Shown piece by piece: positions 8,508 to 28,156 of a stretch of DNA of 64,000 nucleotides (position 1 is the first letter of the stretch; every line of letters starts with the position of its first letter). The notes under the pieces are model-generated. The model was not told where the DNA came from. It saw nothing but the letters and a program-made list of their open reading frames with translations, and did no database searches. This stretch comes from Pontiellaceae bacterium B12219 (GTDB taxonomy: Bacteria > Verrucomicrobiota > Kiritimatiellia > Kiritimatiellales > Pontiellaceae): positions 1 to 64,000 of the forward strand of contig JARNMJ010000003.1 of assembly GCA_029432795.1 (NCBI GenBank). Reading direction: 5' to 3'. A program made the position numbers and the translations under genes.

Positions 8508-8545
8508 TAAAAAAAGCCCTGTATCAAAAGATACAGGGCTTTCCA
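8508..8545. terminator. Terminator, probably used from both sides
   Basis: An 11-bp perfect stem (AGCCCTGTATC / GATACAGGGCT, loop AAAA) lies 15 nt after the lipoprotein stop. The plus strand has only three T after the stem. The minus strand has seven T, the better terminator. On the minus strand it directly follows the tRNA 3' end, as expected for the original terminator of a tRNA gene. Confidence 0.85.
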
Positions 8546-8551
8546 CCAAAT

Positions 8552-8575
8552 TGGTGGAGGACGCGAGACTCGAAC
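8552..8575 (-). other. tRNA 3'-end fragment, candidate attachment site
   Basis: On the minus strand the sequence reads GTTCGAGT, then CTCGC, GTCCTCC, A and CCA. These correspond to the T-loop, 3' T-stem strand, 3' acceptor strand, discriminator base and CCA tail. The upstream bases do not form the matching 5' T-stem (GCGAG expected) or any tRNA body, so this is a fragment that breaks at the T-loop. Such fragments are left when an element integrates into a tRNA gene. The rest of this gene-poor stretch up to 8942 holds an inverted repeat and a terminator but no convincing gene. Confidence 0.6.
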
Positions 8576-8641
8576 ATGAAATACTCCATAAACCACATCT
8601 ACTCGCATCTTGCTTCATATGAATGAATTATAAACCTCCCG

Positions 8642-8677
8642 AAATGGCTTCAAAACTCCTGCCGCAGGAAGCCATTT
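8642..8677. repeat. Inverted repeat next to the tRNA fragment
   Basis: AAATGGCTTC and GAAGCCATTT are perfect 10-bp arms separated by 16 nt. No poly-T follows closely on the plus strand. It may be a recombinase or excisionase arm site near the presumed element end, or a weak terminator; the sequence alone does not decide. Confidence 0.4.
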
Positions 8678-8837
8678 AACCAAATTTCCTTTCTCCGTTT
8701 TCTCCGAAAGTTTTATGCGCTTCATCCGGTGACCAGATTACGCGTTTATAACTCGCCCCCTCCTCACGGAATGGCAAAGGATGCTGTTCAAGAAGCTGCA
8801 CATGTATCCCGCATCTCGTCATCGGATTTAAGCCGAA

Positions 8838-9224: not shown

Positions 9225-12200
9225 TTAGCCCTGTGCCCTTCGTTCTATGCGCCTTTCCACTAATTCATAAATTGCTGGTAGCACAAACAACGTCAGAAAC
9301 GTTGAGGTGGTTAATCCGAACACGACCACTGCCGCAAGCGGTCGTTGGACTTCTGCACCTGCTCCTTGTGATATTAGCAATGGAGTCAGGCCAAACAGCG
9401 TGGTTAGAGTAGTCATAATAACCGGTCTGAAGCGGATTAATCCTCCATTGATAACTGCATCGTGTATGCTTTGTCCTTCCTTCCGAAGATCATTGAAGTC
9501 AGTAAGCAGCACCATGGCGTCTTGCATCGCAATCCCGAACAGGGCAATGAAACCGATGGATGCCGGGACGGAGAGATATTGTCCCGTTACCCATAGCCCA
9601 ATGACTCCTCCGATCAGTGCCATCGGAACACACAGGATAATCATAGAGGCATGTCGCACGGAATGGAATGTGATCCATAGGAGGATGAAGATGAGCCCAA
9701 GTACGACGGGAACGATAATCATCAGCCTTTTCATAGCTCGTTGCTGTTGCTCGAACTGACCTCCGTATTCAATGAACACACCGGGCGGGACATCTACTTT
9801 TTCTGCCACGGTTGCTTTAATATCTGTGAGTACGGCACTAAGTGCGCGGTCACTAATATTTCCCTGCACAATCCAGCGACGCTGATTTTGTTCCCGGTTG
9901 ATTTGCAATGGCCCATCAACCTCCACGATGTCTGCCAGCTGATTCAGCCGAAGCAGCGCCCCGTCATCAGAACGAATGAACAGCTCAGCTAGTTGTTTGG
10001 GCGTTGATCTGAATTCCGGTGCAAGCCGAACATGGATGCCATAGCGCCGAGTATTACGATACAAGGTGCTGATCACCTCACCGCCTACAGCGGCTTCCAC
10101 CTGCTCCAGAACCTTTTCACCGGGCACATTATGCCGTGCTAATTCATCGTGATTCAGCACCACCTGAAACTGTGGTTGACCGAAGCTTTGCTCTATCGAC
10201 AAATCCACGAGCCCTTCTACACCCTCAAGGGCGGATCGCATGGATTCAGCGGTCTCCCGGATTTCATCCAGCTCTTCACCGTATACTTTGATGGCTAGCT
10301 GAGCTCTGGATCCAGATAACATTTCATCAAATATGTGTTGGATTGGCTGTGAGAAATTGACTTGCATTCCGGGATAATCTTTCAGGCGCTCTCGCAATTC
10401 GTCAACAATCCGAGGCTTTTCCTTGGGGTTGTCCAGCCCCACATGAATCATTGCAAAGTTGACAGGATGAGGATGGCCACCCGCCTCCGGTCGACCAATC
10501 ATTGCGACAGCATCCTTTATTCCCTCTACCTGCATGATTTCCGCATTCACCCGCTGGACCGTTCGCTCGGCTTCTTCCAACGCGATCGATGGGGCCATGC
10601 TTACGTCGATACTGATAGATCCTTCATCAAGCACGGGAATGAACTCAGTTCCAATACGTTGTAGAAAAAAACCAGATGCTGCTAGCAGCATGGCCAACAG
10701 TATAAAGACCAGCACTTTGGCTTTAAGTGCACCGCTGAGCATGGCGCGGTAGCCGTTTTTTAGTCCGCAGAAGAAACGGGACTCTTTGTAAGGCTTTTCA
10801 TTTAGAAGCCAGCTGGCCAACACGGGCGCGATAGCTAAGGCAAACACAATGGAGCCGCCAAGAGCCAACATGACAGTGTATGCCAAAGGCTTAAACATTT
10901 TTCCTTCGGTCGCCTCCATGGTAAGAACTGGAAGGAACACGACGATTACGATCATGATCGCAAAGGCAATCGGTCGACCGACCTCTTTCGTTGCATCATG
11001 AATCAATTTTAGCCGATCCGCTTTCTTTCCATGATTCAACCCGAGGAACCGGTGAATATTTTCGGTGACAACAATCGATCCATCCACCAACATGCCCAAG
11101 GCAATAGCGATTCCGCCCAATGACATAAGGTTCGCGGAAATACCGAAATGGTTCATACCAATAATGGCTACCAACGCGCAGAACGGCATCGCCAACGCAA
11201 CAATGGTGGCCGCACGGAAACAGCCTAGAAAGGCAAAGAGTACCACCAGCACCAGTATCATCCCCTGAAGTAGGGCGACATTTACGGTGCGGGTTGAATT
11301 ATTTACCAGATTAGCCTGTTCATAGTACGGAACTAGTTTTACGCCTTCCGGCAAATTGGCCTGAACTTCTTCAACCTTGGAATACAGATCAGTGATAACC
11401 TTGGATGCATTGGCTCCGAAAAGTTTCATCACCATGCCGGAAACGACTTCTTCATTTGTTCCCAATGTAACCATTCCTCGACGTAGTTCGTGACCATATT
11501 CCACTTCGGCTACATCATCAATCGAGATCGGAGTTCCATCGAATGTTTTGAGTGTAATTCCCCGGATATCATCCAAATCATTGAGGAACCCCACTCCTCG
11601 GACAAGGTGCTCTTCTGAATTAATCTGCAAATACTGCCCACCCACGTTCCGGTTGTTGGCTTGTACTGCGCTCATGACATCCTCAATAGCCAACCCGTAT
11701 TTGTGCAACAGGAAGGGATCGATTTGAATTTGATATTGAAGAACAAAACCGCCAGCGCTCAGGATGTCCGTCACACCATTTACGGTTTGTAATTGACGCT
11801 TTACCACCCAGTCATTGAGATCGCGCAGGTAAGTCAGTTTATCAAGCCCTTTCGTATCGGCTCCATCTTCCAGTTCCAGATAGTAGAGGAATATTTGCCC
11901 AAGCCCAGTTGAGATTGGGCCTAGCGAGGGAGGCTCATGCATGGCAGGCAGATCGGCGGCGGCAGACGCCAACCGTTCAGCAACCAACTGGCGGGCAAAA
12001 TAAATATCGGTATCGTCAGTAAAATAGACGTACACGACTGCCATACCAAAGGCGGAGGTCGATTTGACCAAGTTCACATCTGGCAAACCATTCATCGCGG
12101 TTTCTATCGGATACGTGATTAATTGCTCCACTTCTTCAGGAGCCATACCCTCGGCTTCAGCAAAAACTGGAACCACGATTGGTGAAATATCCGGAAACGC

Positions 12201-12311
12201 TTCGACATCCAGTTTCCGGTATTCGAACACGCCAAGCGCGATCACGCCGAGCAGCGCAATAAGCACGAGGCCTCTATTGTTAAGAACACTATTAATTATT
12301 TTTTCAATCAT
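9225..12311 (-). CDS. czcA: Heavy-metal RND efflux pump, CzcA/CusA family
   Basis: The inner-membrane proton antiporter of a three-part pump that moves metal ions from periplasm or cytoplasm to the outside. Its 1028 residues match the family length. Visible features are the N-terminal helix, family phrases such as EVEQLITYPIETAMNGLPDV, the TM4 signature with the proton-relay Asp (LGMLVDGSIVVTENI) and two large periplasmic domains between twelve helices. It lacks the MPTTM motif found in the second pump of this window, so it is less likely to be a copper/silver pump; zinc, cobalt, cadmium or nickel are possible. It follows its adaptor and channel genes in the same direction. Confidence 0.93.
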   Translation of the reverse strand: MIEKIINSVLNNRGLVLIALLGVIALGVFEYRKLDVEAFPDISPIVVPVFAEAEGMAPEEVEQLITYPIETAMNGLPDVNLVKSTSAFGMAVVYVYFTDDTDIYFARQLVAERLASAAADLPAMHEPPSLGPISTGLGQIFLYYLELEDGADTKGLDKLTYLRDLNDWVVKRQLQTVNGVTDILSAGGFVLQYQIQIDPFLLHKYGLAIEDVMSAVQANNRNVGGQYLQINSEEHLVRGVGFLNDLDDIRGITLKTFDGTPISIDDVAEVEYGHELRRGMVTLGTNEEVVSGMVMKLFGANASKVITDLYSKVEEVQANLPEGVKLVPYYEQANLVNNSTRTVNVALLQGMILVLVVLFAFLGCFRAATIVALAMPFCALVAIIGMNHFGISANLMSLGGIAIALGMLVDGSIVVTENIHRFLGLNHGKKADRLKLIHDATKEVGRPIAFAIMIVIVVFLPVLTMEATEGKMFKPLAYTVMLALGGSIVFALAIAPVLASWLLNEKPYKESRFFCGLKNGYRAMLSGALKAKVLVFILLAMLLAASGFFLQRIGTEFIPVLDEGSISIDVSMAPSIALEEAERTVQRVNAEIMQVEGIKDAVAMIGRPEAGGHPHPVNFAMIHVGLDNPKEKPRIVDELRERLKDYPGMQVNFSQPIQHIFDEMLSGSRAQLAIKVYGEELDEIRETAESMRSALEGVEGLVDLSIEQSFGQPQFQVVLNHDELARHNVPGEKVLEQVEAAVGGEVISTLYRNTRRYGIHVRLAPEFRSTPKQLAELFIRSDDGALLRLNQLADIVEVDGPLQINREQNQRRWIVQGNISDRALSAVLTDIKATVAEKVDVPPGVFIEYGGQFEQQQRAMKRLMIIVPVVLGLIFILLWITFHSVRHASMIILCVPMALIGGVIGLWVTGQYLSVPASIGFIALFGIAMQDAMVLLTDFNDLRKEGQSIHDAVINGGLIRFRPVIMTTLTTLFGLTPLLISQGAGAEVQRPLAAVVVFGLTTSTFLTLFVLPAIYELVERRIERRAQG

Positions 12312-12343
12312 TGAGAAATCTCCATTTAACAGTCAAAAATAAC

Positions 12344-13411
12344 TTAATGTCCATGCCCTGCATGAGGATCCATTCCGCTGGTAACCATCTGCGCTTTAAG
12401 GGCAAAAGCACCGACAGCGACATATCGATCATTCGGCTTTAGACCGCCGCGAATTTCGATGCTTAAGTCATCTTCCGTTCCTGTTTGAACGGGCGTTGCA
12501 ACAAAGCCATGTTCACTTGGCGTAAAGATTACAGATTCACCCTCAATACGCTGTATTGCTTCGCGCGGGACCACCACACGGGCATTGACCTGCTTCACCA
12601 CAATTTCAGCCCGCACAAAAGCCCCCGGTTTGAAATCTTCAGTAGCGCCTTCTAGTACACAGCGTGCAGTGAGTGTACGAGTTTCGTGCGAAACAATCGG
12701 ACTGACGTACTTAATTTTACCTTTGGCTGTGTGGCCATCGTGCGCAACAAACGTAACGACGGTGTTCTTTTGAACTAAATGCTGATATTCTGGAAAAATA
12801 CTAATATCCGCCCAGACTGATGAGAGATCAGCGACTTTATATAGAACCGAGTCCTCCCCAGCGGTTTCACCAACTGCAAGATCTTTACTAATGATGGTTC
12901 CATTCTGCGGAGCCGAGACTGTATATACGGCCATGGTTTCTCGGTTTTCCAAAGAAGCCAGCACATCACCCTTTTTAACGGTATCTCCAATTTCCGCAAA
13001 TACCTGTCGGACTATGCTAGGATAACGGGGCGATACAGAAGCCGACCGATCCCGGTTCAGCTTGATCTCTGCGGGAAATATGGATGAAAGCGCAACGGTT
13101 CCTCCTTGAGCCTCAAGAATCTTAAGCCCCAACTTCGTGATCATTTCCTCAGAAAGTTCAATGCCCCCTGCCGCTTGATCCCCGTGATCATGCCCCTCAT
13201 GATCATCGTGAGCTTCTTCGCCACTAGAGCCATCGTCATGGCCTTCGTGATCATCATGACCGGCCCCTTCGGCACCGTTGTCATGACCTTCATGACCGCT
13301 TTGTGCAGGAGCAGCTTTTTTTGCATGGTCGTGCCCTGAATGATCTTCTTGCTGTGCCTGAACGTAGGCAACGATAGTTAAAAAAAGAAAGATTGAATAA
13401 ATTTTTTTCAT
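12344..13411 (-). CDS. Pump adaptor, CzcB type, with His-rich N-terminal region
   Basis: The periplasmic membrane-fusion protein of the pump. After a signal peptide (MKKIYSIFLFLTIVAYVQA) comes a region of about 65 residues packed with His, Asp and Gly, with repeated units such as DDHEGHD, likely to bind metal. Then follow a lipoyl domain (VFAEIGDTVKKGDVLASLE ... SAPQNGTIISKDLAVGE), a short hairpin, a beta-barrel and a membrane-proximal domain. The C terminus (DPHAGHGH) is also His-rich. The long His region is like that of CzcB relatives and favours Zn/Co/Cd/Ni over Cu(I). Confidence 0.92.
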   Translation of the reverse strand: MKKIYSIFLFLTIVAYVQAQQEDHSGHDHAKKAAPAQSGHEGHDNGAEGAGHDDHEGHDDGSSGEEAHDDHEGHDHGDQAAGGIELSEEMITKLGLKILEAQGGTVALSSIFPAEIKLNRDRSASVSPRYPSIVRQVFAEIGDTVKKGDVLASLENRETMAVYTVSAPQNGTIISKDLAVGETAGEDSVLYKVADLSSVWADISIFPEYQHLVQKNTVVTFVAHDGHTAKGKIKYVSPIVSHETRTLTARCVLEGATEDFKPGAFVRAEIVVKQVNARVVVPREAIQRIEGESVIFTPSEHGFVATPVQTGTEDDLSIEIRGGLKPNDRYVAVGAFALKAQMVTSGMDPHAGHGH

Positions 13412-13424
13412 AGTGTTCTCCTTA

Positions 13425-14633
13425 TTACTCGGAAATATATTTTGTCATTTCTGCCAGAGCCAAACGGGCTTCCAGCAAGGATTCGATATAGCGGATGTTT
13501 GTTTCGGTTAAATGCTGCTGGGCTATAATAACTTCAAGTGCGGAATACCGACCTGCTGCATAGCCATCCCTGCTCAGTTCATAGCCCTTTGCGGCTTGTG
13601 GCAGAAGTTTATCACGATAGCGACTCGCTTGAATCGAAGCGCTTTCATACATAACCATTACGCGGGTAAGATCTTGCTGAAGGTCTCGTTGTAACCGCTC
13701 TCTCTCAGCAGAGAGGGCATCCGCTCGCAACATAGAAGAGGCGCTTTCATATTTTCCCCGTTTCACAAAAGGCAAAGGAATGGATGCTCCAACAACAAAT
13801 GATTGTACATCTCCCTCCGCTTGATATCTCACTCCAGCCCCCAATGTAAGATCTGGAATACTCTGAGTGCGGGCAAGTTTGGCCTCAGCACGGGCCTGTT
13901 CTTCCAGCGATTGAAAACGTTGCAGTGCTGGATAGGATGTTCCAATGGAGACCGTTTGCGCATCATCCAATTGGTGATAAAAATCGCCAGTGGGATGGCC
14001 AAGATCTGAAAAGGGTACTCCGAGCAAAGAGGCCAAGCTCTTCAAGGCCCCCTCCAACTGTTTTTCAATGGCTATTGTGGCCAATTGAGCCTCTTCATAC
14101 CGGGAATCGGCCTGTAGGGTGTCCAGCTCCGATGCTCCGCCCGCCTCGTACCGCTTTGTGGCCGTTTCGGAAAACCCACGAGCCAATACTTCCTGAGCTT
14201 TCCTGACTTTGGAAATTTCCTGAAGGGCGAGAACCCGTGTGAATTCTGAACGCACCATGGCGTCGAATTCACGTTCGGTTAACTGAATGGTTTGCTCCGC
14301 GGCATTTAAGCCATAGCGGGCAACATCCTTGGCCTTTCCTATTCTCCCGGAAAGCGGGAATTCCTGTGAAATACCCAGGGTATATTCGCCACGATTCTTG
14401 CCCAGATTGTCTCCGCCGACATTTTCGGCTTCGAATCCTAGTTCCGGATTGTGCCAAAGCCCGGCGGCTCGAATATCCTGTCCCGCAGCCTGAGCCTGGG
14501 CCCGGGCAGCCCTAAGCTCGGGGGATTGTTTTCGGGCAAGCGCCAGCGCCTGCTCCATTGTTAAACTTCCGGGCTCAGCGAACCCGCTTGCGGCATACAA
14601 CATGCCCACACATAAAATTATCTTACTTTTCAT
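13425..14633 (-). CDS. Outer-membrane channel, TolC/CzcC family
   Basis: A 402-residue outer-membrane efflux protein. It has a signal peptide ending in GFAEP and two TolC repeats rich in Ala/Gln/Glu heptads, with family phrases such as MEQALALARKQSPELRAARAQAQAAGQD and IGISQEFPLSGRIGKA-like strands (here LGISQEFPLSGRIGKA). It should form the trimeric channel for the adaptor and RND protein encoded after it, with 13- and 32-nt gaps. The ribosome site AGGAG is 5 nt before the ATG. Confidence 0.9.
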   Translation of the reverse strand: MKSKIILCVGMLYAASGFAEPGSLTMEQALALARKQSPELRAARAQAQAAGQDIRAAGLWHNPELGFEAENVGGDNLGKNRGEYTLGISQEFPLSGRIGKAKDVARYGLNAAEQTIQLTEREFDAMVRSEFTRVLALQEISKVRKAQEVLARGFSETATKRYEAGGASELDTLQADSRYEEAQLATIAIEKQLEGALKSLASLLGVPFSDLGHPTGDFYHQLDDAQTVSIGTSYPALQRFQSLEEQARAEAKLARTQSIPDLTLGAGVRYQAEGDVQSFVVGASIPLPFVKRGKYESASSMLRADALSAERERLQRDLQQDLTRVMVMYESASIQASRYRDKLLPQAAKGYELSRDGYAAGRYSALEVIIAQQHLTETNIRYIESLLEARLALAEMTKYISE

Positions 14634-14665
14634 TTATCACTCCTGATTGATTTCCAATATTCGGA

Positions 14666-14687
14666 ACTGCGGAGCTATACCCGCAGT
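14666..14687. promoter_or_regulatory. Inverted repeat upstream of the channel gene
   Basis: ACTGCGG and CCGCAGT (7-bp arms, 8-nt loop) lie 33 nt before the channel start, in the gap after the small Cys/His-rich gene. There is no T run, so it is more likely an operator or mRNA stem than a terminator. Function not known. Confidence 0.4.
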
Positions 14688-14729
14688 AACACCTCTAAAA
14701 GAGACTAAGTAATCGCCTTTAAGACAAAA

Positions 14730-15089
14730 TCAAATCAGGAGTCTAATAGTCTTAAGAACCGCAAGAATGCCAGAGACCAACGGAGGGGGATTAATCTTGA
14801 GTTGTTCGCTACGGGGCGGCCATGCCATGACAACATCCGCAGCAGGCTGTTCTGCAATACTGGAAGAAACTTCTGATCTCTCACGCTCCAGATTCAGATC
14901 GTCTAAACAGGATGCATCATTGCACGAATGACATTCACAGGGAGCACATGAAACAGCACAAAGCCCCGCAACCTCATCATGCTGATGACCTGTATGCACT
15001 TCCCCATGCCCACAAGGCGAAAAACTCACCGTGAGAGTTATCAAAAGTAAAATGTGCATAAACAAACGCATAACTTTAAACCAGACCAA
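14730..15089 (-). CDS. Small exported Cys/His-rich protein
   Basis: About 112-119 residues. The start is uncertain: a TTG with a very close AAGGA, or the ATG 18 nt downstream that begins MRLFMHILLLITLTVSF, a normal signal peptide. The mature part has a dense metal-ligand patch (CGHGEVHTGHQHD, CAVSCAPCECHSC) and then a non-descript tail. I do not recognise a family. It sits between the P-type ATPase and pump genes on the same strand, so a periplasmic metal-binding role is inferred. Confidence 0.65.
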   Translation of the reverse strand: MVWFKVMRLFMHILLLITLTVSFSPCGHGEVHTGHQHDEVAGLCAVSCAPCECHSCNDASCLDDLNLERERSEVSSSIAEQPAADVVMAWPPRSEQLKINPPPLVSGILAVLKTIRLLI

Positions 15090-15124
15090 TTCCTTGGGTA
15101 TTCGTTCCGTAATAATTCATATCT

Positions 15125-17308
15125 TCATTTCGCGAGTGAACCTGAGCTTCTTCCAAGTAATCGCAAGCTATTCCCGATTACCAGCAACGATGCGCCCATG
15201 TCCGCTGCAATCGCCATCCAGAGGGTCGCCACATTGGCTACGGCCAGCCCCATGAACACTAACTTCAGTCCAAGGGCAAATATGATGTTTTGACGAATGA
15301 TATTCAGCGTTCTCTGGGCATGCAGGATGAGCCATGGAATGCGGGTGAGGTCGTCGGACATCAGGGCAATGTCTGCCGTTTCAATCGCTGCATCCGCTCC
15401 AGCTGCGCCCATGGCAATCCCAAGACTGGCAGCAGCTAGAGCTGGCGCATCGTTGATACCGTCGCCGACCATGGCCACATCTCCATATTGCTGAACCAGT
15501 CCTTCGACCGTCTTTAACTTGTCCTCCGGCAACAGTTCAGCCTGAACTTCATCCAGCCCCACTGTTTTGGCTATGGCATCGGCAGTGCCTTGATTATCAC
15601 CGGTAAGCATCACCACATGTTGAAGACCGACTGCTTTGAGTCCTTTCACGACCTCGGCGGCATGTTCACGAATCGTATCGGCGATACTAATGAGCCCACA
15701 CACATGCTCATCGTTACCGATAACCACAATCGAATGACCAGCATCTTCCATTGATTCGATTTGCTGATGGAGCTCTGGGCTTTCCATATTCTTTTCGTGC
15801 AGAAGGCGGTGGCTACCTAGCCAGAAGGCGCGTCCATGAATGATTGCTGATGCCCCTTTACCTTTGATTGCCTGAAAATCTTCTGCCGGAGGAACATTAA
15901 TTCCCTCCTTCTTCGCCAAACGCAATATGGCCCGTGCCAGCGGATGGTCGCTATGCACTTCCATAGCGGCGGCCCGTTCCAGTAGTTCGTTGCGCGTATG
16001 GTTATTGAGCGGAACGATCTCCTGGACCTCGGGCTTACCGTGCGTGATGGTTCCGGTTTTATCCAGCGCAATGGCTTTAAGACGTCCGGCTGCCTCCAGA
16101 TAGGCACCGCCCTTAATCAATACACCTGCACGGGCAGATGACGCCAACGCAGCCACTATACTGACGGGTGTGGAAATCACAAGAGCGCACGGACAGGCAA
16201 TCACTAGAATGACCAATGCCTGATAGAACCACGCCCCCCATGCACCACTAAACAAGACCGGGGGAACGAGGGCAATGAGCACGGCCAGTATAATCATCGT
16301 CGGAGTGTAGTAGCGGGCAAATTTTTCTACCCATTGCTCCGATGGGGCACGGCGGGATTGGGCTTCTTCAACCATACGAATGATTTGTGATATGGTTGTC
16401 TCACTGGCAGGTTTAGACGAGCGGAACTCAACGGAACCATCTTCATTCACCGTTCCCGCATAGACCTCGTCTCCCAGCTGTTTTTCCACCGGCATGGATT
16501 CGCCGGTGATGGGAGCCTGATTGACGGTCGTACTTCCTTTACTGATGACCCCGTCTAGCGGAAATTTTTCACCCGGACGCACAAGCACTGTCACACCGAC
16601 GGGCACATCGGTAATGGATTTTTCCATGATGTCTCCATCGCAAGGGCAGATATAGCGGGCGGTGGCAGGCGTAAGATCCATCAAAGCCTGAATAGCCCGG
16701 CGGGCACGACCCACGCTCCAAGATTCTAACAGCAGGGAAAATGAAAACAGGAACGCCACAGCAGCAGCCTCAAACCATTCACCGATCAGCATAGCACCGA
16801 TGACTGCAATGCTCATCAAAAGATTCATATCCGCTCTGCGCCTGCGCACGGCACTGATTGCCTTTGGCAAGACATACCATCCCCCGGCTATGACCGCACC
16901 AAGGTAGGAGAAAATACTGACCACCGGAATACTATGAGGCTCAGTACCTTCTCCTCCGGCCAATGCGTCGAGCAGGCTTTTGTGAAGAAACGCATGCAGG
17001 GCAAATCCAAAGAAAGCAAGAGCACCACTGAGGATGCACATGATCTTGCGCCCATATTGTTGCCAGAAGCCTTGATCAGGCTCGATACCGGGTTGATATG
17101 GTTGCGCCTTCATCCCGGCCTGAGAGACCGCCGCGATGACCTCTTCTTCAGCGGTGGTGGCATCAGAGTAGGTAACCGTCATGGTTCCATTTAGCAGGTT
17201 AAAGTCAAGTTGATCGACTCCCCCCAGCTTACCAACGGTCGCTTTAAGCGCGCTTACTTCCTCCGCACAATCCAATCCGGTGATTTTCAACGTTAACACA
17301 TTCATCAC
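15125..17308 (-). CDS. P-type metal-transporting ATPase, Zn/Cd/Pb type
   Basis: A P1B ATPase that exports metal from the cytoplasm. It begins with a small ferredoxin-like domain whose metal loop has one Cys (LDCAEEV) instead of CxxC. It has the TGES actuator motif, the intramembrane CPC (ACPCALVIS), the phosphorylated DKTGT, the SDHPLA motif and GDGINDAPAL. The last helices contain GLKLVFM and ADMGAS, the Lys and Asp typical of the P1B-2 class (ZntA/CadA), so Zn, Cd or Pb is the likely substrate rather than Cu. Length 727 is usual. It lies between small exported metal-binding protein genes. Confidence 0.92.
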   Translation of the reverse strand: MMNVLTLKITGLDCAEEVSALKATVGKLGGVDQLDFNLLNGTMTVTYSDATTAEEEVIAAVSQAGMKAQPYQPGIEPDQGFWQQYGRKIMCILSGALAFFGFALHAFLHKSLLDALAGGEGTEPHSIPVVSIFSYLGAVIAGGWYVLPKAISAVRRRRADMNLLMSIAVIGAMLIGEWFEAAAVAFLFSFSLLLESWSVGRARRAIQALMDLTPATARYICPCDGDIMEKSITDVPVGVTVLVRPGEKFPLDGVISKGSTTVNQAPITGESMPVEKQLGDEVYAGTVNEDGSVEFRSSKPASETTISQIIRMVEEAQSRRAPSEQWVEKFARYYTPTMIILAVLIALVPPVLFSGAWGAWFYQALVILVIACPCALVISTPVSIVAALASSARAGVLIKGGAYLEAAGRLKAIALDKTGTITHGKPEVQEIVPLNNHTRNELLERAAAMEVHSDHPLARAILRLAKKEGINVPPAEDFQAIKGKGASAIIHGRAFWLGSHRLLHEKNMESPELHQQIESMEDAGHSIVVIGNDEHVCGLISIADTIREHAAEVVKGLKAVGLQHVVMLTGDNQGTADAIAKTVGLDEVQAELLPEDKLKTVEGLVQQYGDVAMVGDGINDAPALAAASLGIAMGAAGADAAIETADIALMSDDLTRIPWLILHAQRTLNIIRQNIIFALGLKLVFMGLAVANVATLWMAIAADMGASLLVIGNSLRLLGRSSGSLAK

Positions 17309-18833: not shown

Positions 18834-21800
18834 TTATGCATCCTCTGTTAGCTGTTTTCTACTCATCCGGACTTCCTGAATAAGGCAGTAAAGTACCGGG
18901 ACTACGAGCATGGTGATTACCTCAATCAACATGCCTCCAAAGCTTGGAATAGCCATAGGGACCATGATGTCGGATCCGCGTCCGGTTGAGGTGAGTACCG
19001 GTAGCAGCGCCAGAATGGTTGTGGCGGTGGTCATGAGGCAGGCGCGGACCCGGCGATTACCCGCTTCAACTACCAAAGCCCGGATCTCTTGTTTCGTATG
19101 GACGGCTGTATCTCTAAACATCTGTGTTAGGTAGGTGCCCATGACAACGCCATCATCAGTGGCAATACCGAAGAGCGCGAGAAAGCCGACCCAGACAGCC
19201 ACGCTCATATTGATGGTGTGCACTTGGAAGAGATTTCGCATTTCGACCCCGAAGATGCTGAAATCGAGGAACCAAGGTTGGTCGTAAAGCCAGATCAAAA
19301 TAAAACCGCCGGACCATGCGATGAAGACGCCGGTAAAGATCAGCAAGGTGGTAGCCGTGGATTTAAACTCAAAGTAGATGAGCATGAATATGGCAAAGAG
19401 TGCAATCGGCAAAACCATCGCGAGTGTTTTAGAAGCTCGTTGCTGGTTTTCATAGGATCCCGCAAATCGATAACTAACACCTCGGGGGATTTCAAGCTCA
19501 CCACGGTCTATCTTTGATTGAAGGTAGGCTTGGGCTTGTTCAACCACATCTACCTCGGCGTAGCCGGGTTTTTTATCGAAGACCACGTAGCCAACGAGAA
19601 AGGTGTCTTCCGATTTGATGTTTTGTGGGCCGCGTACATAACGAATATCGGCCAACTCAGTAATCGGAATCTGCTGCCCGGTCATACCGGGAATGAGTAC
19701 TTTCTCGAGTGACTCAATATCATCACGCAATTCACGTGCATACCGAACACGAACGGGGAAACGCTCTCTTCCCTCGATAGTCCCGGTAACCTTTTTTCCG
19801 CCAATGGCGATTTCGACCACATTCTGGAACTTGTGAATTGGAATGCCGTAGCGAGCCAAGGCTTCTCGATCTGGATGAATTTCCAGATAAGGTTTACCCA
19901 CAATGCGGTCGGCAATTACAGCTGCCGGTTCAACGGATGGCACTTCTTTCAGATATTTCTCAATCTGAAGCCCTACTTCCTCGATGGTTTCGAGATCTGG
20001 CCCTTGCACCTTTACGCCCATTGGAGCGCGCATCCCGCTTTGCAGCATAACAATTCGGGCGGCAATCGGTTGCAGATTAGGAGCGGAGGTTGTGCCGGGT
20101 ATTTTGGCGGCCTTAGTAATCTCATCCCAAATATCATCGGGCGAACGAATATGATCACGCCATTGGCGGAACGGTCGACCTCGGGGATCTTCTATAAGTT
20201 CTCCATCAGCATCTCTGACAAATTCTCCATTTGAATATTTATAGTTGATGCGCTGCCCGTCTTTATCCGTTCTATATTCGGGAATATAATTAATCACCGT
20301 TTCGATCATGGATATGGGCGCGGGGTCGAGAGGCGTCTCAGCGCGACCAAGCTTTCCAACCGCCGACTCAATTTCTGGAATCGACTCAAAGGCCATATCC
20401 TGTTTGGCCAGAATATCAATAGCTTCACCAATGGATGCGTGGGTCATGGTGGTGGGCATGAAGAGGAAGGAGCCCTCATCCAGCGTTGGCATGAATTCTT
20501 TTCCGAACCCGGGGAACCAATGCGCCAATTTTTGAATTGGAGCTGTTTTTTCGATGGCATTTGGGAGCCATCCAAAGGTTTTACTAAAACCCAGCCAGCT
20601 GGTCATACCCATGGTAAATAGAAATACAGGAAGTATGAGGAATAAGGCCTTATGGTCTAAACACCACCACAGGATGCGCGCATAAAAGTGCTGGAAGAGT
20701 TGGAAGAATCCAAGCAGCCCCCCGATGAGCAGGATGACAAAAATCAGGTTTCTGAAGGTACCTCTTTCTGGTCCCAGCGGCTCCCACTCTAGCGTAAGCA
20801 ACAAACCCACACAGGCAATGACCGTGATCACCCCAATGAGAGGAATGCCTTTTTTGAGTTTTTTAACACGGGGGGATACGAGTTTTTGTTTCTTTTTCTG
20901 TTTCCAGCAAAACAGGGTGTGTGAAAGCACGGGCAACACAGTTAATGCCAGAATAATGGAGGCGACCAGTGCCACCGTTTTCGTAAAAGCTAACGGTTTG
21001 AAGAGCTTGCCTTCCGCGCCGATCATGGTGAAGACCGGCAGGAAGCTGATCACCGTAGTCAGCACAGCTGTCAATACAGCACTTCCTACTTCTGAAGCCG
21101 CTCGGTGGACGACTTCAAGCTTGGATTCGTCGGGATCGGCCTTATCGAGATGCTTAAGAATATTTTCGCAGATGACGATCCCCATATCGACAATGGTTCC
21201 AATGGCGATGGCGATCCCTGACAAGGCAACAATATTGGCCTGGACATTGAATAGCTTCATGCCAATGAAGCAAAATAGAACGGTTAGCGGAAGCATGGTG
21301 CTGATAGCCAGCCCGGAACGTAGATGCAATACCATCATCAATACGACAATAATAGTGATCAATACCTGTTGCGTGATTGCCTCATTCAGGGTGCCGAGGG
21401 TCTCATAAATCAGTCCGGTTCGATCATAGAATGGAACCACAGTCACTTTGCTGAGTGTTATCCATTCGGGCCATTCCGAACGCTCAACCGAGCGCAAATA
21501 CTCTTTCCACTCCGGTTGATTGATTTGATGGTTCTTATACGCGTCAAATCCCTGTTGTATACCAAATGCAATAACCTCTTCATCGGTTGTCTTATTGAAA
21601 TCGATGATGGCTTTGGAAGGGAGTGCATCTGCAGTGCCTTTAATCTTCTCTTTGACATTGGCGATGACTCGAAGCGGGTTGTCACCATAGCGTGCAACAA
21701 CAACCCCTCCGACCGCTGGCGCACCGCCTTTATCCAGCGTACCTCGACGCTGGGCAGGGCCGAGCGTCACGTTGGCCACATGTTTGACTAAAACAGGCAC

Positions 21801-22655
21801 ATTATCGGCGTTAACTTTGATAACGCTGTTTTCAATGTCTTCCACTTTCTTAATGAAGCCGATGCCGCGAATAAAATATTCAACCCGGTTCACTTCCAGG
21901 TTTTTCGCGCCCACATCCATATTGGCCCCTTGGACCGCTTTGTAGACTTCATCTACGCTCACGCCGTAGGCACGCATCGCATCGGGATCCACATCAATTT
22001 GGTATTCGCGCACAAAACCGCCGACTGAAGCCACTTCAGCCACGCCATCCGCAGATAACAGCCAATATCGTGCATACCAATCCTGGGTGGTGCGGAGCTC
22101 TTCGGGATCCCATCCGCCCGTTGGATTTCCGTCTGGATCCAATCCTTCCAGTGTATACCAATAGACCTGTCCCAACGCTGTAGCATCAGGGCCGAGCGTC
22201 GGTTGCACACCATCCGGCAATGTTCCCGAAGGTAGCGAATTCAGCTTTTCCAGTACGCGGGTTCGTGACCAGTAGAACTCCACATCCTCCTTAAAGATGA
22301 TGTAGATCGAGGAAAAGCCGAACATGGAATACGAACGAATCGTTTTCACGCCCGGAATCCCGAGCAGTTGAACGGTTAATGGATAACCGATCTGATCCTC
22401 TACATCTTCGGGGGATCGTCCCATCCACTCGGTAAAGACGATTTGCTGGTTTTCTCCAATATCAGGAATGGCGTCTACCGCAACAGGGTATCGCTGGAGA
22501 TCTCCGACCTTCCAATCAAATGGAGCAACGAGTAGACCGCCAAAGATAACGGCCATCGTAAAGAGGGTTACGATCAGTTTATTTTCCAAACAAAACCGAA
22601 TCAGACGGCCTACTGGTGATTTTTGTTCGCGAGTCTGTTCTTTTTTAGTGAGCAT
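18834..22655 (-). CDS. cusA: Cu/Ag RND efflux pump, CusA type
   Basis: A second heavy-metal RND transporter. It has the TM4 proton-relay signature (IAIGTIVDMGIVICENIL) and the MPTTM motif that in CusA carries a copper-binding Met. It is about 1273 residues, longer than the usual 1040-1050. Extra sequence includes about 150 residues with added hydrophobic helices (between residues about 570 and 720) before GKEFMPTLDEGSFLF, and a charged insertion near residues 375-405. Long forms of this kind exist in the family. Its start overlaps the adaptor gene by 11 nt, with GAGG 6 nt upstream. The product should pair with the adaptor and channel encoded just before it. Confidence 0.92.
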   Translation of the reverse strand: MLTKKEQTREQKSPVGRLIRFCLENKLIVTLFTMAVIFGGLLVAPFDWKVGDLQRYPVAVDAIPDIGENQQIVFTEWMGRSPEDVEDQIGYPLTVQLLGIPGVKTIRSYSMFGFSSIYIIFKEDVEFYWSRTRVLEKLNSLPSGTLPDGVQPTLGPDATALGQVYWYTLEGLDPDGNPTGGWDPEELRTTQDWYARYWLLSADGVAEVASVGGFVREYQIDVDPDAMRAYGVSVDEVYKAVQGANMDVGAKNLEVNRVEYFIRGIGFIKKVEDIENSVIKVNADNVPVLVKHVANVTLGPAQRRGTLDKGGAPAVGGVVVARYGDNPLRVIANVKEKIKGTADALPSKAIIDFNKTTDEEVIAFGIQQGFDAYKNHQINQPEWKEYLRSVERSEWPEWITLSKVTVVPFYDRTGLIYETLGTLNEAITQQVLITIIVVLMMVLHLRSGLAISTMLPLTVLFCFIGMKLFNVQANIVALSGIAIAIGTIVDMGIVICENILKHLDKADPDESKLEVVHRAASEVGSAVLTAVLTTVISFLPVFTMIGAEGKLFKPLAFTKTVALVASIILALTVLPVLSHTLFCWKQKKKQKLVSPRVKKLKKGIPLIGVITVIACVGLLLTLEWEPLGPERGTFRNLIFVILLIGGLLGFFQLFQHFYARILWWCLDHKALFLILPVFLFTMGMTSWLGFSKTFGWLPNAIEKTAPIQKLAHWFPGFGKEFMPTLDEGSFLFMPTTMTHASIGEAIDILAKQDMAFESIPEIESAVGKLGRAETPLDPAPISMIETVINYIPEYRTDKDGQRINYKYSNGEFVRDADGELIEDPRGRPFRQWRDHIRSPDDIWDEITKAAKIPGTTSAPNLQPIAARIVMLQSGMRAPMGVKVQGPDLETIEEVGLQIEKYLKEVPSVEPAAVIADRIVGKPYLEIHPDREALARYGIPIHKFQNVVEIAIGGKKVTGTIEGRERFPVRVRYARELRDDIESLEKVLIPGMTGQQIPITELADIRYVRGPQNIKSEDTFLVGYVVFDKKPGYAEVDVVEQAQAYLQSKIDRGELEIPRGVSYRFAGSYENQQRASKTLAMVLPIALFAIFMLIYFEFKSTATTLLIFTGVFIAWSGGFILIWLYDQPWFLDFSIFGVEMRNLFQVHTINMSVAVWVGFLALFGIATDDGVVMGTYLTQMFRDTAVHTKQEIRALVVEAGNRRVRACLMTTATTILALLPVLTSTGRGSDIMVPMAIPSFGGMLIEVITMLVVPVLYCLIQEVRMSRKQLTEDA

Positions 22656-24828
22656 GAGGAACCTCTGTTTTAGCTGGCTCTACCCCTTCGGCTCGCATCT
22701 GGCTGATATACTTCTCAGGATCTTCCTTGAAGGTGGTATCACAACCGGGGCAACAAAAATATACGCGCAAACCGTTATGGTCGGCGTAAACCTCTTTATT
22801 GATGGCTCCGCCCATAACGGGGCAAAGTGTCTGTTCGGATGACGCTGGCTCAGTTGCGCCTTGTTCCATAGATTTATGAGTAGAGTCGTTAAACGTTTGT
22901 TGAATTTCTCCACAGCGAAGCATCATATCACCGAAATAGGGATTTAATACCTCTTCTGAAGATTGCAGCCACTGTGCGCCTGCATTATCAAATGCCATTG
23001 GGCAATACGCCTGATATATAGTTTCAGGGACCGGGAAGGTTTGAACCGTTTTAATCAACTGTTGAGAAAGAGAGAGAAACGCTGCGCGTTGGTCCTCTAT
23101 TTCCGTCGCTGCTTTTAATGGGCGGAATGCCGCATTGAAATTTTTCAGATGATCCATCCAGATCATGTGAGCATCGCCCGAAAGCAATCCCATATCAATG
23201 GCATCCAGCGCTTCTTTGGTGGCAGCCGCCGCAATGGTTGCCGCTTGGGGATCATCTCCCGCTAAAGCCTGCTGTAGCGTGAAATAGCTTTGAATCATTT
23301 GCTGTAGCTGTTGAGTGAAGGCTTCAGGCGTTTCCTGAACGATGATTTCGACAGGCGAATCGGTATGTGTTGAATGATCAACGTTCTGGCTCTCACTAGG
23401 CATGCTCATCATACTGGGTTTGGCACGAATTTGCAGTTCCGCATCCAGCTTGAAGGCTCCACGTGTTACAACAAGGTCGCCTTCTTCGAGACCGCTTTCA
23501 ACCACGTAGTAATCACCCAGACGCGCACCTAATTCGACTTCCCGCCCTTCGTAGCTTGGTTTTTCCGAATTCGGAATCTCTACGTAGACTACAGCTCGTT
23601 TCCCGGTTTTTAAGGCGGCAGTCACCGGGATGAGTAGCGGAGCATTTCCTTCGTTCTCGGTAACATATCCAAGGGATTCAGCCGTCACCAGTGGCATCCC
23701 GCAGACATCACAGGGACCGGGCTCATCTTTAATGACTTCTGGATGCATTGGACTGATCCACTTACCAGCGAGCCCTTCATCCATTACTCTTCCAGCCGCT
23801 GCTACTTTTGGCCGAGCCAGTGCTCGAACAAACATTCCGGGCTTCAGTCGACCTTCTTGATTATCTACGATCACGCGAACTTTGGCAGTGCGGGTAGACG
23901 CAGTAATAACCGGATCAATAAATGAGATCGTTCCGGTGAATGTTTCTCCCGGATACGCTTCGGTTGAAAATTCGACTTTTCCGCCATATTTAAGCCAGTT
24001 CAAATCACTCTCATACGCATCTAACTGCACCCATACGGTAGATAGGTCAGCAATCGTGTAGATGCGTGTTCCTGTTTGAACATACATTCCTTCCTGAGCA
24101 TTTTTATGGATTACAATGCCCGCTCCAGGAGAGTAGATGGTCATGTGTTCGCTAGGCGTTTCGCGTTGCTCCACTTCAGCGATCTGTTCTGCGGAGAATC
24201 CCCAAAGGCGCAGTTTTTCACGAGCGGCATCAATGGTTTTCTTGGCGGTTTCTATCAGCGTGCTGCTCTGACTCTCTTTTAGGCTTTCCAACGTGCGAAT
24301 TGCCTGAAGGAGTTCTTCCTGCGCAGTGAATAATTCAGGACTATAGACTTCAGCGAGATGATCGCCTTTCTGAACGGGGATACCAGTGTAGTCGACAAAA
24401 AGTCGGTCTATGCGCCCTGCGATCCATGAAGATATGTAGGAGGTTCCTGTTTCATCATAGTCCACCTTGCCGATCATCCGAATTTCTGCCTCTCCAAAAC
24501 GACGCACAGCAGGCGTTGTTTCCAGCTCCATCAGCTTAGCAGCATATTCGCTGACCCTGACTTCTCGTTCTCCTCCGCCGTCATCGCCGCCTTCAAGCGG
24601 AATCAGATCCATAAAACAGATCGGGCATTTGCCAAATTTAGGCAGTTGAATCTGGGGGTGCATGGAGCAGGTCCATACTTCCGGTTCAGTCGAAACATGC
24701 TCTTCATGAGCGCCAGCGTCTTCTATGTGTACCGCTTTCCCTCGGCTGCATCTACCCACCATAAAGGTAAGCAGAACAACGAAGACCGCAATCAATCCGA
24801 ACTTTATCTGTGTTTTATTTGGTTTCAT
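22645..24828 (-). CDS. cusB: CusB-type adaptor with extra metal-binding domains
   Basis: A periplasmic adaptor with several added metal sites. The start with AAAGGA 7 nt upstream gives an N-terminal anchor. Domains in order: a heavy-metal-binding HMBD (CSMHPQ ... GKCPICFMDLIP, residues about 50-72); barrel-sandwich/lipoyl and beta-barrel domains; a second HMBD (SPMHPE ... GPCDVCGMPLV, about 355-380); a membrane-proximal domain; a DUF3347-like helical domain (about 500-640); and a C-terminal YHS-like domain (CPVMGGAINK ... YFCCPGCDTTF). At about 727 residues it is much longer than CusB. The three extra metal-binding units probably capture Cu(I)/Ag(I) before transfer to CusA. Confidence 0.9.
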   Translation of the reverse strand: MKPNKTQIKFGLIAVFVVLLTFMVGRCSRGKAVHIEDAGAHEEHVSTEPEVWTCSMHPQIQLPKFGKCPICFMDLIPLEGGDDGGGEREVRVSEYAAKLMELETTPAVRRFGEAEIRMIGKVDYDETGTSYISSWIAGRIDRLFVDYTGIPVQKGDHLAEVYSPELFTAQEELLQAIRTLESLKESQSSTLIETAKKTIDAAREKLRLWGFSAEQIAEVEQRETPSEHMTIYSPGAGIVIHKNAQEGMYVQTGTRIYTIADLSTVWVQLDAYESDLNWLKYGGKVEFSTEAYPGETFTGTISFIDPVITASTRTAKVRVIVDNQEGRLKPGMFVRALARPKVAAAGRVMDEGLAGKWISPMHPEVIKDEPGPCDVCGMPLVTAESLGYVTENEGNAPLLIPVTAALKTGKRAVVYVEIPNSEKPSYEGREVELGARLGDYYVVESGLEEGDLVVTRGAFKLDAELQIRAKPSMMSMPSESQNVDHSTHTDSPVEIIVQETPEAFTQQLQQMIQSYFTLQQALAGDDPQAATIAAAATKEALDAIDMGLLSGDAHMIWMDHLKNFNAAFRPLKAATEIEDQRAAFLSLSQQLIKTVQTFPVPETIYQAYCPMAFDNAGAQWLQSSEEVLNPYFGDMMLRCGEIQQTFNDSTHKSMEQGATEPASSEQTLCPVMGGAINKEVYADHNGLRVYFCCPGCDTTFKEDPEKYISQMRAEGVEPAKTEVPHAH

Positions 24829-24849
24829 ATGAATTCCTTTGTCCATTAA

Positions 24850-25599
24850 CTACCACGAAAAATGATTGAGTCCATAAACCAGCATGCCTCCGAAATGGCC
24901 GGTTAACGCCACTAGCACAGCGGCTAAGACTAATGATACCCGATAGGCCAGAATGAATGTCGGGCGTTCTTTCCGAATGCCGATTTCCATGCAGCATGCG
25001 GCAACGATGGAGGCTGCCAATGTAATAAATGCCACGACTTTGTGCTTCATCAGTACTTCAGCATATTCTGCAGGATAAGAGGTCCCGGAAGCCGCAGCTA
25101 AGCCGAGGATGATAGCCGCCACGGCTCCCAGCAGGGCTAAATGTAAATTGAAACGGGCCGCGCCTCGAAAGAGGGGGTGGGATCCGAAGCACAGAAATAG
25201 GCTTTCTGCCAAGGCGGCCATTAAAATAAGTCCGATAGGTATGTGAACCGCTACCGGATGAAACTTTCCAATAAATGTGATCAAGCGGGATGAGGATGAA
25301 TGATCTTGATGATCAGTAGCGTGGTCATGCACTTCAACTTTTTCGCTTAAGTGCTGTTCCTGCAGCTCCTCATTCACGGAGAGGTTAGCAAGATATTTTT
25401 CAGGAGCTTCCTGAAACAGGTTGACGCACATTTTACAGCAGAAATAGATACGCTGACCCTCATGATCAACAAAAAACGAAGGGTCAATCGGATTCCCTTC
25501 CATCACCGGGCAGGTGCTCTGGGTGGGCTGATCTGCCAAAGACAACCCGGCCATAAAGAGTGCCGCAGCCAATAAACCACTAATCAGATACGCTTTCAT
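24850..25599 (-). CDS. YHS-like domain fused to DUF2231-type membrane domain
   Basis: A signal peptide is followed by a small metal-binding domain (CPVMEGNPID ... YFCCKMCVNLF, residues about 29-75), a short His/Asp-rich linker (HDHATDHQDHSSSS) and then about four membrane helices of the DUF2231 type (residues about 105-245). AGGAGG is 7 nt before the start, which overlaps the end of the channel gene by 20 nt. It may keep copper at the membrane or relay electrons or metal; function unknown. The metal-binding domain is shared with three other genes nearby. Confidence 0.8.
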   Translation of the reverse strand: MKAYLISGLLAAALFMAGLSLADQPTQSTCPVMEGNPIDPSFFVDHEGQRIYFCCKMCVNLFQEAPEKYLANLSVNEELQEQHLSEKVEVHDHATDHQDHSSSSRLITFIGKFHPVAVHIPIGLILMAALAESLFLCFGSHPLFRGAARFNLHLALLGAVAAIILGLAAASGTSYPAEYAEVLMKHKVVAFITLAASIVAACCMEIGIRKERPTFILAYRVSLVLAAVLVALTGHFGGMLVYGLNHFSW

Positions 25600-26872
25600 T
25601 GGAATCCTCCTTTTGGTTAATCAGAAAATCAGTCCCGGTCAGCTGGCTGAGTCTGGCTCGGGCAATCAGGTGGTCGGCGCGTGCCCGTTCATAGGACAAT
25701 TCAAACTCGAGCAGCATCCGCTCCGCATCAATCAGGTTGATAAACTCCATGGTGCCGGATTCATATCCTTTTCGGTTCACCTCTAACGATTGGCGGGCTT
25801 TAGGAATCAAGCTCGCTTTATAAAGGTTAATTTTACGGTCTGCATCCCGAAGTTGAAAAAGGACTTCCTGCAATGCGGACTCCAACTCCTGCTGACGGTC
25901 GACACGATTGAACATGGCAGCCGTTTTCTGATAGGAGGCCGACTGAATGCGGGCGCGGTTTTTTCCCGCCCATATCGGGAGGGTTATTCCAACAGAACCA
26001 ATAATCGCATCCTGCCCGGAATCGGGTACGGCCATCTCGGCCTCTCCCGTTTGTATATATTGCAGTCCCACAAAAAAATCTGGATACCGTTCGCGCTTCG
26101 CCAGTTTGATTTGTTGTTCGCTCTGCTCAATGCGCTGATCCCATTCCCCAAGTTCGGGATTAAAGCGTGCAATCGATGATCTTAGTTCTTCCGGCGATGA
26201 AAGCACCGGCATGTAGTCAACATTCTGAGGCCATGCCAACGGCGCATTTTCGGGACGGTTAAGTAATGTGTTAAGTCGGGCTGAGTGAGGTTTTCGCTGG
26301 TCATTTAAGGCTGCCAGTTGATCTTCAAGTCGCCCCAATTCTACCTGTGCCTGCAGAGTGGCTCCCAGTGGTGCTCCGGCAGAATAACGGGTTCGGGCGA
26401 TTTGCTCCAGATCCCGGACCAAACGAATGCGGTCTTCCGTCACGTCAATGCTGCGTTTTAGATAATAGAGATCAGCGTATGCTTTAGTGATTCGATGATT
26501 TAGCCGCAATCTTGTTTGCTGAACCTTTTGCTGAACGGCATTTGATTCCTGCTGGGCAATAGACTTCTTCAAGGAAAGTTTTCCGAAACCGGGAAACTTC
26601 TGGGAAACAGAAAATCGTTGGTTTTGTGGACCGACTCGAGTTTCCACCGGTTCAAAATAATATCCATACGAAATACTTGGGTCAGGAAGTGCCTTTTTAA
26701 CCGCGATCTGCTCTTCAGTTGCTTTCCATTGGTTATGCGAGGCCTGAAGCCCGGGATTCTGCATTTCGCCAATCTGTAACACAGCTCTCAAGGTCAAGTT
26801 GGAGCCGAGATTGTCAGCGAGGACAATCAGGGGGAAAAGAAGAAGGAATGTGACTATCGCTTTTGTTTTCAT
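25580..26872 (-). CDS. Outer-membrane channel, TolC/CusC family
   Basis: The chosen ATG has AAGGATG just upstream and gives a signal peptide (MKTKAIVTFLLLFPLIVLA). An in-frame ATG 18 nt earlier lacks a good site. The mature protein has two TolC repeats with phrases like RFSVSQKFPGFGKLSLKKSIA and SVGITLPIWAGKNRARIQSA. It should be the channel of the Cus-type pump encoded downstream. The order channel, YHS-membrane protein, adaptor, pump is compact. Confidence 0.9.
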   Translation of the reverse strand: MKTKAIVTFLLLFPLIVLADNLGSNLTLRAVLQIGEMQNPGLQASHNQWKATEEQIAVKKALPDPSISYGYYFEPVETRVGPQNQRFSVSQKFPGFGKLSLKKSIAQQESNAVQQKVQQTRLRLNHRITKAYADLYYLKRSIDVTEDRIRLVRDLEQIARTRYSAGAPLGATLQAQVELGRLEDQLAALNDQRKPHSARLNTLLNRPENAPLAWPQNVDYMPVLSSPEELRSSIARFNPELGEWDQRIEQSEQQIKLAKRERYPDFFVGLQYIQTGEAEMAVPDSGQDAIIGSVGITLPIWAGKNRARIQSASYQKTAAMFNRVDRQQELESALQEVLFQLRDADRKINLYKASLIPKARQSLEVNRKGYESGTMEFINLIDAERMLLEFELSYERARADHLIARARLSQLTGTDFLINQKEDSNESVSD

Positions 26873-26941
26873 GGCATCCTTTGTGTTCAATCATGAAGGG
26901 GAACTGCTTTCGCGGAACCCCCTCAAATTTAACCAACTTGG

Positions 26942-27271
26942 TTAATGGTGGTGACCAGCATGCGAATTGCTCTTTTTCTCGCTCTCATTCTTGCCCGTCT
27001 TGGGAGTTTCGTCGAGGACGATTCCCTTATCTTCCAGTAGCTTAATGTACTTATCGGGGGCGGCTTTGATCTTGCCGATACATCCGGGACAGCAGACATA
27101 GATGCGTTTACCCTGAACATCCGCATATTGAGCTTTATTGATTTTTCCACCCATCACCGGACAGGTCGTTTGCTTTTTAGGCTCCGTTTTCTTTTCAGCC
27201 GCCTGTGCTGAGATCAATCCAATGCCCAATATCGTGGAAATAAGAATGGCCATAATTTTTCTGCGTTTCAT
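26942..27271 (-). CDS. Small periplasmic YHS-like metal-binding protein (A)
   Basis: 109 residues: signal peptide (ends SAQAAEK), one domain with CPVMGGKINKAQYAD and YVCCPGCIGKIK, and a His tail (SHAGHHH). The Cys pattern CPVM ... CCxxC is that of YHS-like or TRASH-type copper-binding proteins. It is a close paralogue of the next gene upstream. Probably a soluble copper carrier for the Cus-type pump. Confidence 0.8.
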   Translation of the reverse strand: MKRRKIMAILISTILGIGLISAQAAEKKTEPKKQTTCPVMGGKINKAQYADVQGKRIYVCCPGCIGKIKAAPDKYIKLLEDKGIVLDETPKTGKNESEKKSNSHAGHHH

Positions 27272-27321
27272 GTGTTAGCTCCTGTTGTCTTCACTGGTTA
27301 CTTATATCTATTAAACACTCT

Positions 27322-27624: not shown

Positions 27625-27648
27625 TGATTGCTCCTTGGTTATTTTAGA

Positions 27649-27999: not shown

Positions 28000-28024
28000 C
28001 AGCTTACTCCTGAATGCCTCTTAA

Positions 28025-28039
28025 GCACAATGTGTGCCA
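28025..28039 (-). promoter_or_regulatory. Candidate sigma-54 (-24/-12) promoter
   Basis: On the minus strand TGGCACACATTGTGC has the TGGCAC -24 element and the invariant GG-N10-GC spacing; the -12 box is GTGC rather than TTGC. It points into the receiver gene, whose ATG is 26 nt further on with an AGGAG site between. The adjacent gene encodes a sigma-54 activator, which supports the call. Confidence 0.6.
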
Positions 28040-28112
28040 GCGTATAAAACAGCAACAAAACCCGTGTTTTCGGCGTAAAACCTGTTTTTGATGGGCAGGA
28101 GTAATGGATCAG

Positions 28113-28153: not shown

Positions 28154-28156
28154 TGT

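Follow-up and report, generated by a model that had tools for sequence, protein, structure and literature searches.

What is the lone tRNA-like 3' end at positions 8552-8575 of this DNA, and does it mark the left boundary of an integrated element, as the earlier note had proposed? The stretch analysed here (the window) spans 64,000 nucleotides, C207:1-64000 of a 168-kb contig, and belongs to a genome of 4.75 Mb (G000). Read on the minus strand from 8575 to 8552, the fragment is GTTCGAGTCTCGCGTCCTCCACCA (24 nt), directly followed on its 3' side by ATTTGGTGGAAAGCCCTGTATC-TTTT-GATACAGGGCTTTTTTT, a strong hairpin-T terminator with a hairpin energy of -23.4 kcal/mol against -7.8 +/- 2.6 kcal/mol in shuffled sequences (0/200 shuffles as low; z -5.9). 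Neither ARAGORN nor Rfam detects a complete tRNA around the 24-mer in the 64-kb window, and Rfam finds no RNA family there at all. The same fragment occurs in two close relatives among 58 genomes searched, exactly in G025 and with one mismatch in G024, and shuffled sequence gave 0 chance matches to it. A search with the flanking DNA returned a 29-nt perfect match in G016, located just 3' of an intact ssrA gene, and the sequences that follow the CCA in the fragment and in the G016 gene are identical at 21 of 21 nt. G000 itself has one intact ssrA, with the tag ADESYALAA (Rfam, ARAGORN), on the same contig and strand as the fragment, so a distance of 94 kb on a single contig separates the two sites. 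Once the flank had proved to match an ssrA terminator, we abandoned the tRNA reading; judged by that flank, the lone 3' end is of tmRNA (ssrA) type. The earlier description of a tRNA end with T-loop, T-stem, acceptor strand, CCA and terminator thus holds for the sequence and the terminator but fails on tRNA identity, and its T-arm portion turns out to be phage DNA, as set out below.

To which side of the junction does each nucleotide belong? The intact ssrA of G000 ends in GTTCAATTCCCCCCAT-CTCCACCA-GTTTTATT and the fragment reads GTTCGAGTCTCGCGTC-CTCCACCA-ATTTGGTGG, with CTCCACCA alone in common. When G000 is compared with G024, the ssrA genes differ up to CTCCACCA and the sequences 3' of this block are near-identical, whereas the arms are identical bar one base and the sequences that follow the CCA differ, each being host-like in its own genome; fragment DNA upstream of CTCCACCA is therefore that of the element, and DNA downstream is that of the host. 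The T-loop/T-stem-like 16 nt recur with at most one base changed in two other genomes and are absent from all host ssrA genes read, and the fragment's T-stem strand, CTCGC, is unable to pair with the ssrA T-stem strand, GGGGG. We read these 16 nt as element DNA, the host gene contributing only CTCCACCA and the terminator. The earlier note had suggested looking for a second copy of the 24 nt. The 4.75-Mb genome contains none, even when up to 3 mismatches are tolerated, because the phage attachment arm accounts for most of these nucleotides; the conclusion that an element ends here holds all the same.

The phage arm matches a T-arm at 11/15 positions, more than random 15-mers of the element do (P ~0.001); G025 has a second arm, which scores 10/15, and a Desulfobulbus arm scores 6/15, which is chance level. 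Recognition by the integrase may lie behind this likeness, or it may be partly accidental, and no conclusion depends on it. A second, different arm (GTGTTTGGACTCCGC...), intact at G025:C76:237-430 (L144) and decayed at G024:C1:304390-304555 (L028), probably derives from another element at the same site. At the opposite end, the phage supplies ssrA with a replacement terminator of -21.4 kcal/mol, similar in strength to the native one, and the ssrA gene product is unchanged because only the terminator is exchanged.

The element runs from C207:8552 to ~102,692 (~94 kb), with the fragment and the intact ssrA at opposite ends and the integrase between them (Table 1). The sibling genome G027 lacks the element and runs straight through the 3' end of ssrA: its positions 988896-998219 match G024 206108-215419, up to the ssrA end, and 998211-998287 match G024 302409-302485, with collinearity resuming from 305.1 to 332.9 kb. 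The empty site overlaps both element ends of G024 by 9 bp, CCTCCACCA, and the intervening 87 kb is the G024 insertion. This insertion is 89-95% identical in nucleotide sequence to contig positions 8552-103040 over most of its length, whereas the chromosome beside the element is only 70-75% identical between G000 and G024; cargo and phage have therefore moved together, and recently relative to the split of the hosts. At the level of sequence, this amounts to transfer between species as one unit. With the empty site, the G024 alignment, and an intact ssrA 94 kb away, the proposed left boundary of an integrated element at 8552 is borne out; nor did we see a gene order conserved across this point, which had been named as evidence to the contrary.

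Table 1. Features of the ssrA-integrated element and its flanks (window coordinates unless preceded by C207).
Feature	Position	Strand	Evidence
Native host ssrA terminator and 3' flank, displaced from the gene by the insertion	8509..8551	-	21/21 nt vs G016 flank; hairpin -23.4 kcal/mol
Lone ssrA-type 3' end (fragment)	8552-8575	-	
Attachment core (C)CTCCACCA, last 8-9 nt of ssrA, common to both element ends	8552..8560	-	Own ssrA vs fragment; G027 empty site vs G024 ends
Phage attachment arm, T-arm-like GTTCGAGTCTCGCG..., element left end; outer limit provisional	8561..8720	-	Conserved in G024 and G025 exactly from the core; joined to integrase end in G025:C101
Metal cargo 1, full span	9225..17308	-	
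Metal cargo 1: CusA/CzcA-type RND efflux operon	9225-14633	-	TIGR00914 E 4e-291; HlyD_D23, OEP
Metal cargo 1: heavy-metal P-type ATPase	15125-17308	-	TIGR01525 E 3e-184
Metal cargo 2, full span	18834..31268	-	
Metal cargo 2: second RND operon	18834-26890	-	Pfam
Metal cargo 2: two-component regulator and sensor	28157-31268	-	Pfam
ADP-ribosylglycohydrolase	31618..32649	-	PF03747 E 2e-60
Defence cargo: DprA-like and PRTase-like pair, Vsr nicking enzyme, Mrr-type helicase, ATPase, C5 cytosine methyltransferase	32671..40681	-	Pfam, PADLOC
Tail and baseplate genes: DUF4815, Tail_P2_I, Baseplate_J, gpV-type, tape measure	41483..64000	-	Pfam, PHROGs
Phage right of window: sheath, neck, major head protein, portal, TerL, primase	to ~C207:102,692		Pfam, PHROGs
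Large serine integrase, 525 aa	C207:100161-101738		PF00239 E 2e-38, PF07508 E 3e-17, PF13408 E 8e-13; PHROG 95 E 8e-122
Intact ssrA	C207:102685-103039	-	Rfam, ARAGORN

In G000, the block composed of ssrA and the element is turned round relative to the flanking genes when compared with four relatives: G027 and G024 have the same flanking operon upstream of ssrA, and G016 and G001 have two of its neighbours there. The breakpoints fall at window positions 8499-8510 and at C207 ~103087, the block reading terminator-arm-element-ssrA, and no repeats of at least 8 nt were found at these inferred breakpoints. Either a real inversion or a misassembly may account for the orientation. G024 also shows both attachment junctions, and by that alignment they are supported independently of the inversion question.

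The joined form of the two ends can be seen in G025, where, on contig C101, the integrase end (matching 98195-102692) meets the arm end (matching 8540-8754) at the core with nothing in between; beyond the arm come the same metal cargo and, after it, tail genes. Such a joint is the product expected of an excised circle or of two tandem elements. Another G025 contig carries a native-type terminator followed by a different arm, and a third carries ssrA followed by an integrase end, a combination that fits a tandem pair.

Which enzyme would make such an insertion? The earlier note had anticipated a full tRNA gene with an integrase nearby to the right; the integrase is there, beside ssrA, and the gene is an intact tmRNA gene rather than a tRNA gene. 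The protein has the Resolvase catalytic domain, the Recombinase domain, and the zinc ribbon of large serine integrases, and its gene is the second of three: DUF2924 comes first, and the third encodes an HTH-like protein of 137 aa and ends 0.5 kb short of ssrA. Among its relatives (51 cellular and 19 viral loci), DUF2924 adjoins nearly all integrases and the HTH protein adjoins most. A maximum-likelihood tree places the integrase in a clade of 36 sequences (support 100/100) that includes Kiritimatiellota, Thermodesulfobacteriota, Pseudomonadota, Zixibacteria, and Bacteroidota. Of these, 23/36 adjoin an ssrA-type 3' end, a label that covers intact ssrA as well as ssrA-like ends without a detected tmRNA (e.g. 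L084, L088, L129), and 0/36 adjoin a tRNA; the loci were picked by their match to this integrase, so these counts describe its relatives only. In a large subgroup, the distance from the integrase stop codon to the ssrA end is 862 bp at most loci, and integrase regions show 91-96% identity between Thermodesulfobacteriota and Ectothiorhodospira, a member of Pseudomonadota whose ssrA tag is of the gammaproteobacterial type.

Several members of the outgroup adjoin tRNA-Ser, -Ala, -Met, or -Thr genes; distant DUF2924-serine integrase relatives at L101, L110, L111, L112, L114, and L139 lie tail to tail with tRNA-Met/-Ser/-Ala/-Thr. This placement suggests that tDNA targeting is wider in the DUF2924-serine integrase family. 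Separately, the records of Desulfocarbo indianensis (L080, 2323-12434) and Desulfobulbus rhabdoformis (L121, 1-10112), two bacteria of different families, share a 10,112-bp stretch of the integrase end at 100% identity, which reflects either very recent transfer or contamination.

Beyond the integrase, the element encodes the gene set of a contractile-tailed prophage, with TerL, portal, major head protein, sheath, baseplate, and tape measure identified by PHROGs and Pfam, and the phage part also encodes exonuclease V and Sak4. From its genes, we take the element to be a temperate myovirus prophage that may be infectious. Its major head protein (C207:70746-71609; L002:6746-7609) has >70 relatives in IMG/VR. 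Among contigs that have the same capsid and integrase (e.g. IMGVR_UViG_3300017598_001815), the major head protein is up to 91-93% identical, and several carry this integrase at 66-74% identity; the nearest capsid in the phage collection is that of Bacillus phage G, ~30% identical. By these matches, the phage belongs to a lineage without a close cultured member. The IMG/VR contigs resemble the element in capsid and integrase and differ in the metal RND pump, which was not found in the 25 related records searched, a search run without a positive control that shows little.

Metal efflux and defence together make up ~32 kb of the prophage. Positions 15156-32085 are 94% identical in nucleotide sequence to G024, and the 9-kb defence stretch at 32085-41115 is present in G000 and has no counterpart in the G024 copy. 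Within the window, the cargo has a G+C of mostly 0.47-0.52 and the phage part one of 0.52-0.56, a difference from which we conclude that the cargo was probably acquired later. Three smaller observations concern this region and its surroundings. At 32671-34499, the DprA-like gene next to that of the PRTase-like protein bears a weak resemblance to PsyrTA/ShosTA toxin-antitoxin defence pairs; a 140-nt direct duplication (27024-27163 and 27401-27540, 76% identity) lies inside the metal cargo; and a low-G+C insert in the phage structural genes (C207:67752-69025; L002:3752-5025) carries a DmeF-type Co/Ni efflux transporter, a further metal gene apart from the main cargo.

Taken together, these data lead us to a reading to which we give a probability of roughly 0.93: position 8552 marks the left end of a temperate myovirus prophage, ~94 kb long, inserted by a large serine integrase into the last 8-9 nt of ssrA. 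The integrase would recombine the phage attP with an attB consisting of the 3'-terminal 8-9 nt (CTCCACCA) of this host gene, and ssrA would stay intact, its terminal nucleotides being the site of the crossover. The phage end would then provide ssrA with a new, equally strong terminator, while the host terminator would stay behind at 8509-8551 beside the other phage arm, creating a junction that resembles a lone tRNA end; the metal-efflux and defence genes would be cargo between arm and tail genes, travelling with the phage. Both ends, the empty site, the integrase type, and its neighbourhood can be read directly from the aligned genomes; what we infer is the role of this integrase as the catalyst, the precise dinucleotide at which crossover occurs, and the phage's excision and infectivity. 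Counted against this reading are the block orientation in G000, the G025 joint that is possibly tandem, and the difference in G+C between cargo and phage.

That same difference in G+C (cargo ~0.48-0.50, phage 0.52-0.56), together with the tandem elements that seem to occur in G025, would fit a stack of two elements that both use the ssrA site, with a phage at 41.1-102.7 kb and, placed behind it, a separate metal/defence island at 8.6-41.1 kb. We consider this very unlikely: no internal att-like sites were found between 8.6 and 102.7 kb, no second integrase was identified among the cargo genes scanned, G024 holds cargo and phage as one 87-kb unit, and G025:C101 joins a phage-type integrase end to the arm, then to the same metal cargo, and then to tail genes. 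The earlier suggestion that the metal, defence, and tail genes lie within an element or a stack of elements accordingly narrows to all of them being inside one element in G000.

Two further accounts of the 24 nt carry next to no weight with us. One holds that they resemble a tRNA end by accident, next to a terminator of the usual kind, and mark no boundary of an element, as the missing second copy and the lack of RNA-family matches in the window might suggest; homologous element ends in two other genomes start exactly here, the flank is an ssrA terminator, the opposite end holds an intact ssrA, and this account is refuted by the empty site together with the G024 alignment. The other, about equally remote, invokes a tyrosine integrase with crossover in the T-arm, the 24 nt being the displaced original 3' end of ssrA. 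It would match the common arrangement at tRNA/tmRNA genes (PMC4383910) and the T-arm likeness of the fragment, but the fragment's T-stem strand cannot pair with that of ssrA, the arm is the same in three genomes whose ssrA bodies differ, the core, at only 8-9 bp, is about as short as those usual for serine integrases (5-8 bp, PMC8092301), and the integrase beside ssrA is of the serine family.

Insertion of a myovirus prophage by a serine integrase therefore remains our preferred reading, and from it we lean, with modest preference, towards a broader proposal: a DUF2924/HTH-partnered serine integrase clade of an uncultured temperate myovirus lineage may target the near-invariant CCA end of tmRNA genes, exchanging only the terminator and keeping ssrA working in many bacteria, so that closely similar phage DNA would enter hosts of different phyla with metal-resistance and defence cargo. 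If the integrase works in this way, its site is present in very many bacteria, which is of interest for phage host range and for genome-integration tools. Serine-integrase ends at such genes have only 8-9 bp in common, and methods that look for displaced gene fragments, the test suggested in the earlier note among them, can therefore miss them.

How does this compare with known systems? According to the Islander authors, no serine recombinase was known to use tRNA/tmRNA genes as targets (PMC4383910). The exceptions we found are the Dehalococcoides islands and one Paracoccus phage, and the whole clade described here appears to target the ssrA end in several phyla. In the open-access literature searched, the Dehalococcoides islands were the only ssrA-targeting serine integrases found, although an earlier description may exist; no matching reports of metal-resistance prophages were found, and DUF2924 appeared in Wolbachia papers only.

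The tyrosine-integrase islands of the Islander type (PMC4383910) are alike in having an intact tDNA at one end, a tDNA-like fragment on the same strand at the other, and an integrase near one end. They differ from our element, which has a serine integrase and an 8-9 bp core instead of tens of bp, lacks the second 24-mer, and replaces only the terminator without rebuilding the gene body. Paracoccus phage vB_PamS_Pami6 is likewise a serine recombinase prophage assigned to a tDNA, tRNA-Met (PMC6536676); it is a single case of a siphovirus with another target, set apart here by its description, not by sequence. The M. abscessus serine-integrase prophages have cores of 5-8 bp and take reading frames as targets (PMC8092301). 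The closest parallel is with the ssrA-specific islands of Dehalococcoides, which McMurdie 2011 attributed to a CcrB-like serine integrase, DsiB, and judged not to be phages (PMC3146451). Both systems have a serine-family integrase, an ssrA target, tandem insertions downstream of ssrA, and variable cargo. The Dehalococcoides islands insert at the T-loop with a 20-bp repeat and carry a six-gene DsiB/DsiA module and no phage (PMC3146451), whereas the core here is the 3'-terminal 8-9 nt of the gene, the integrase is flanked by DUF2924 and the 137-aa HTH-like protein and accompanied by virion genes, and it scores 150 bits against the CcrB model, far under the model cut-off of 900. Set beside the Islander, Dehalococcoides, Paracoccus, and M. 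abscessus cases, the present one is therefore a new variant: it is phage-borne, uses the extreme 3' end of ssrA, and has a three-gene module of its own.
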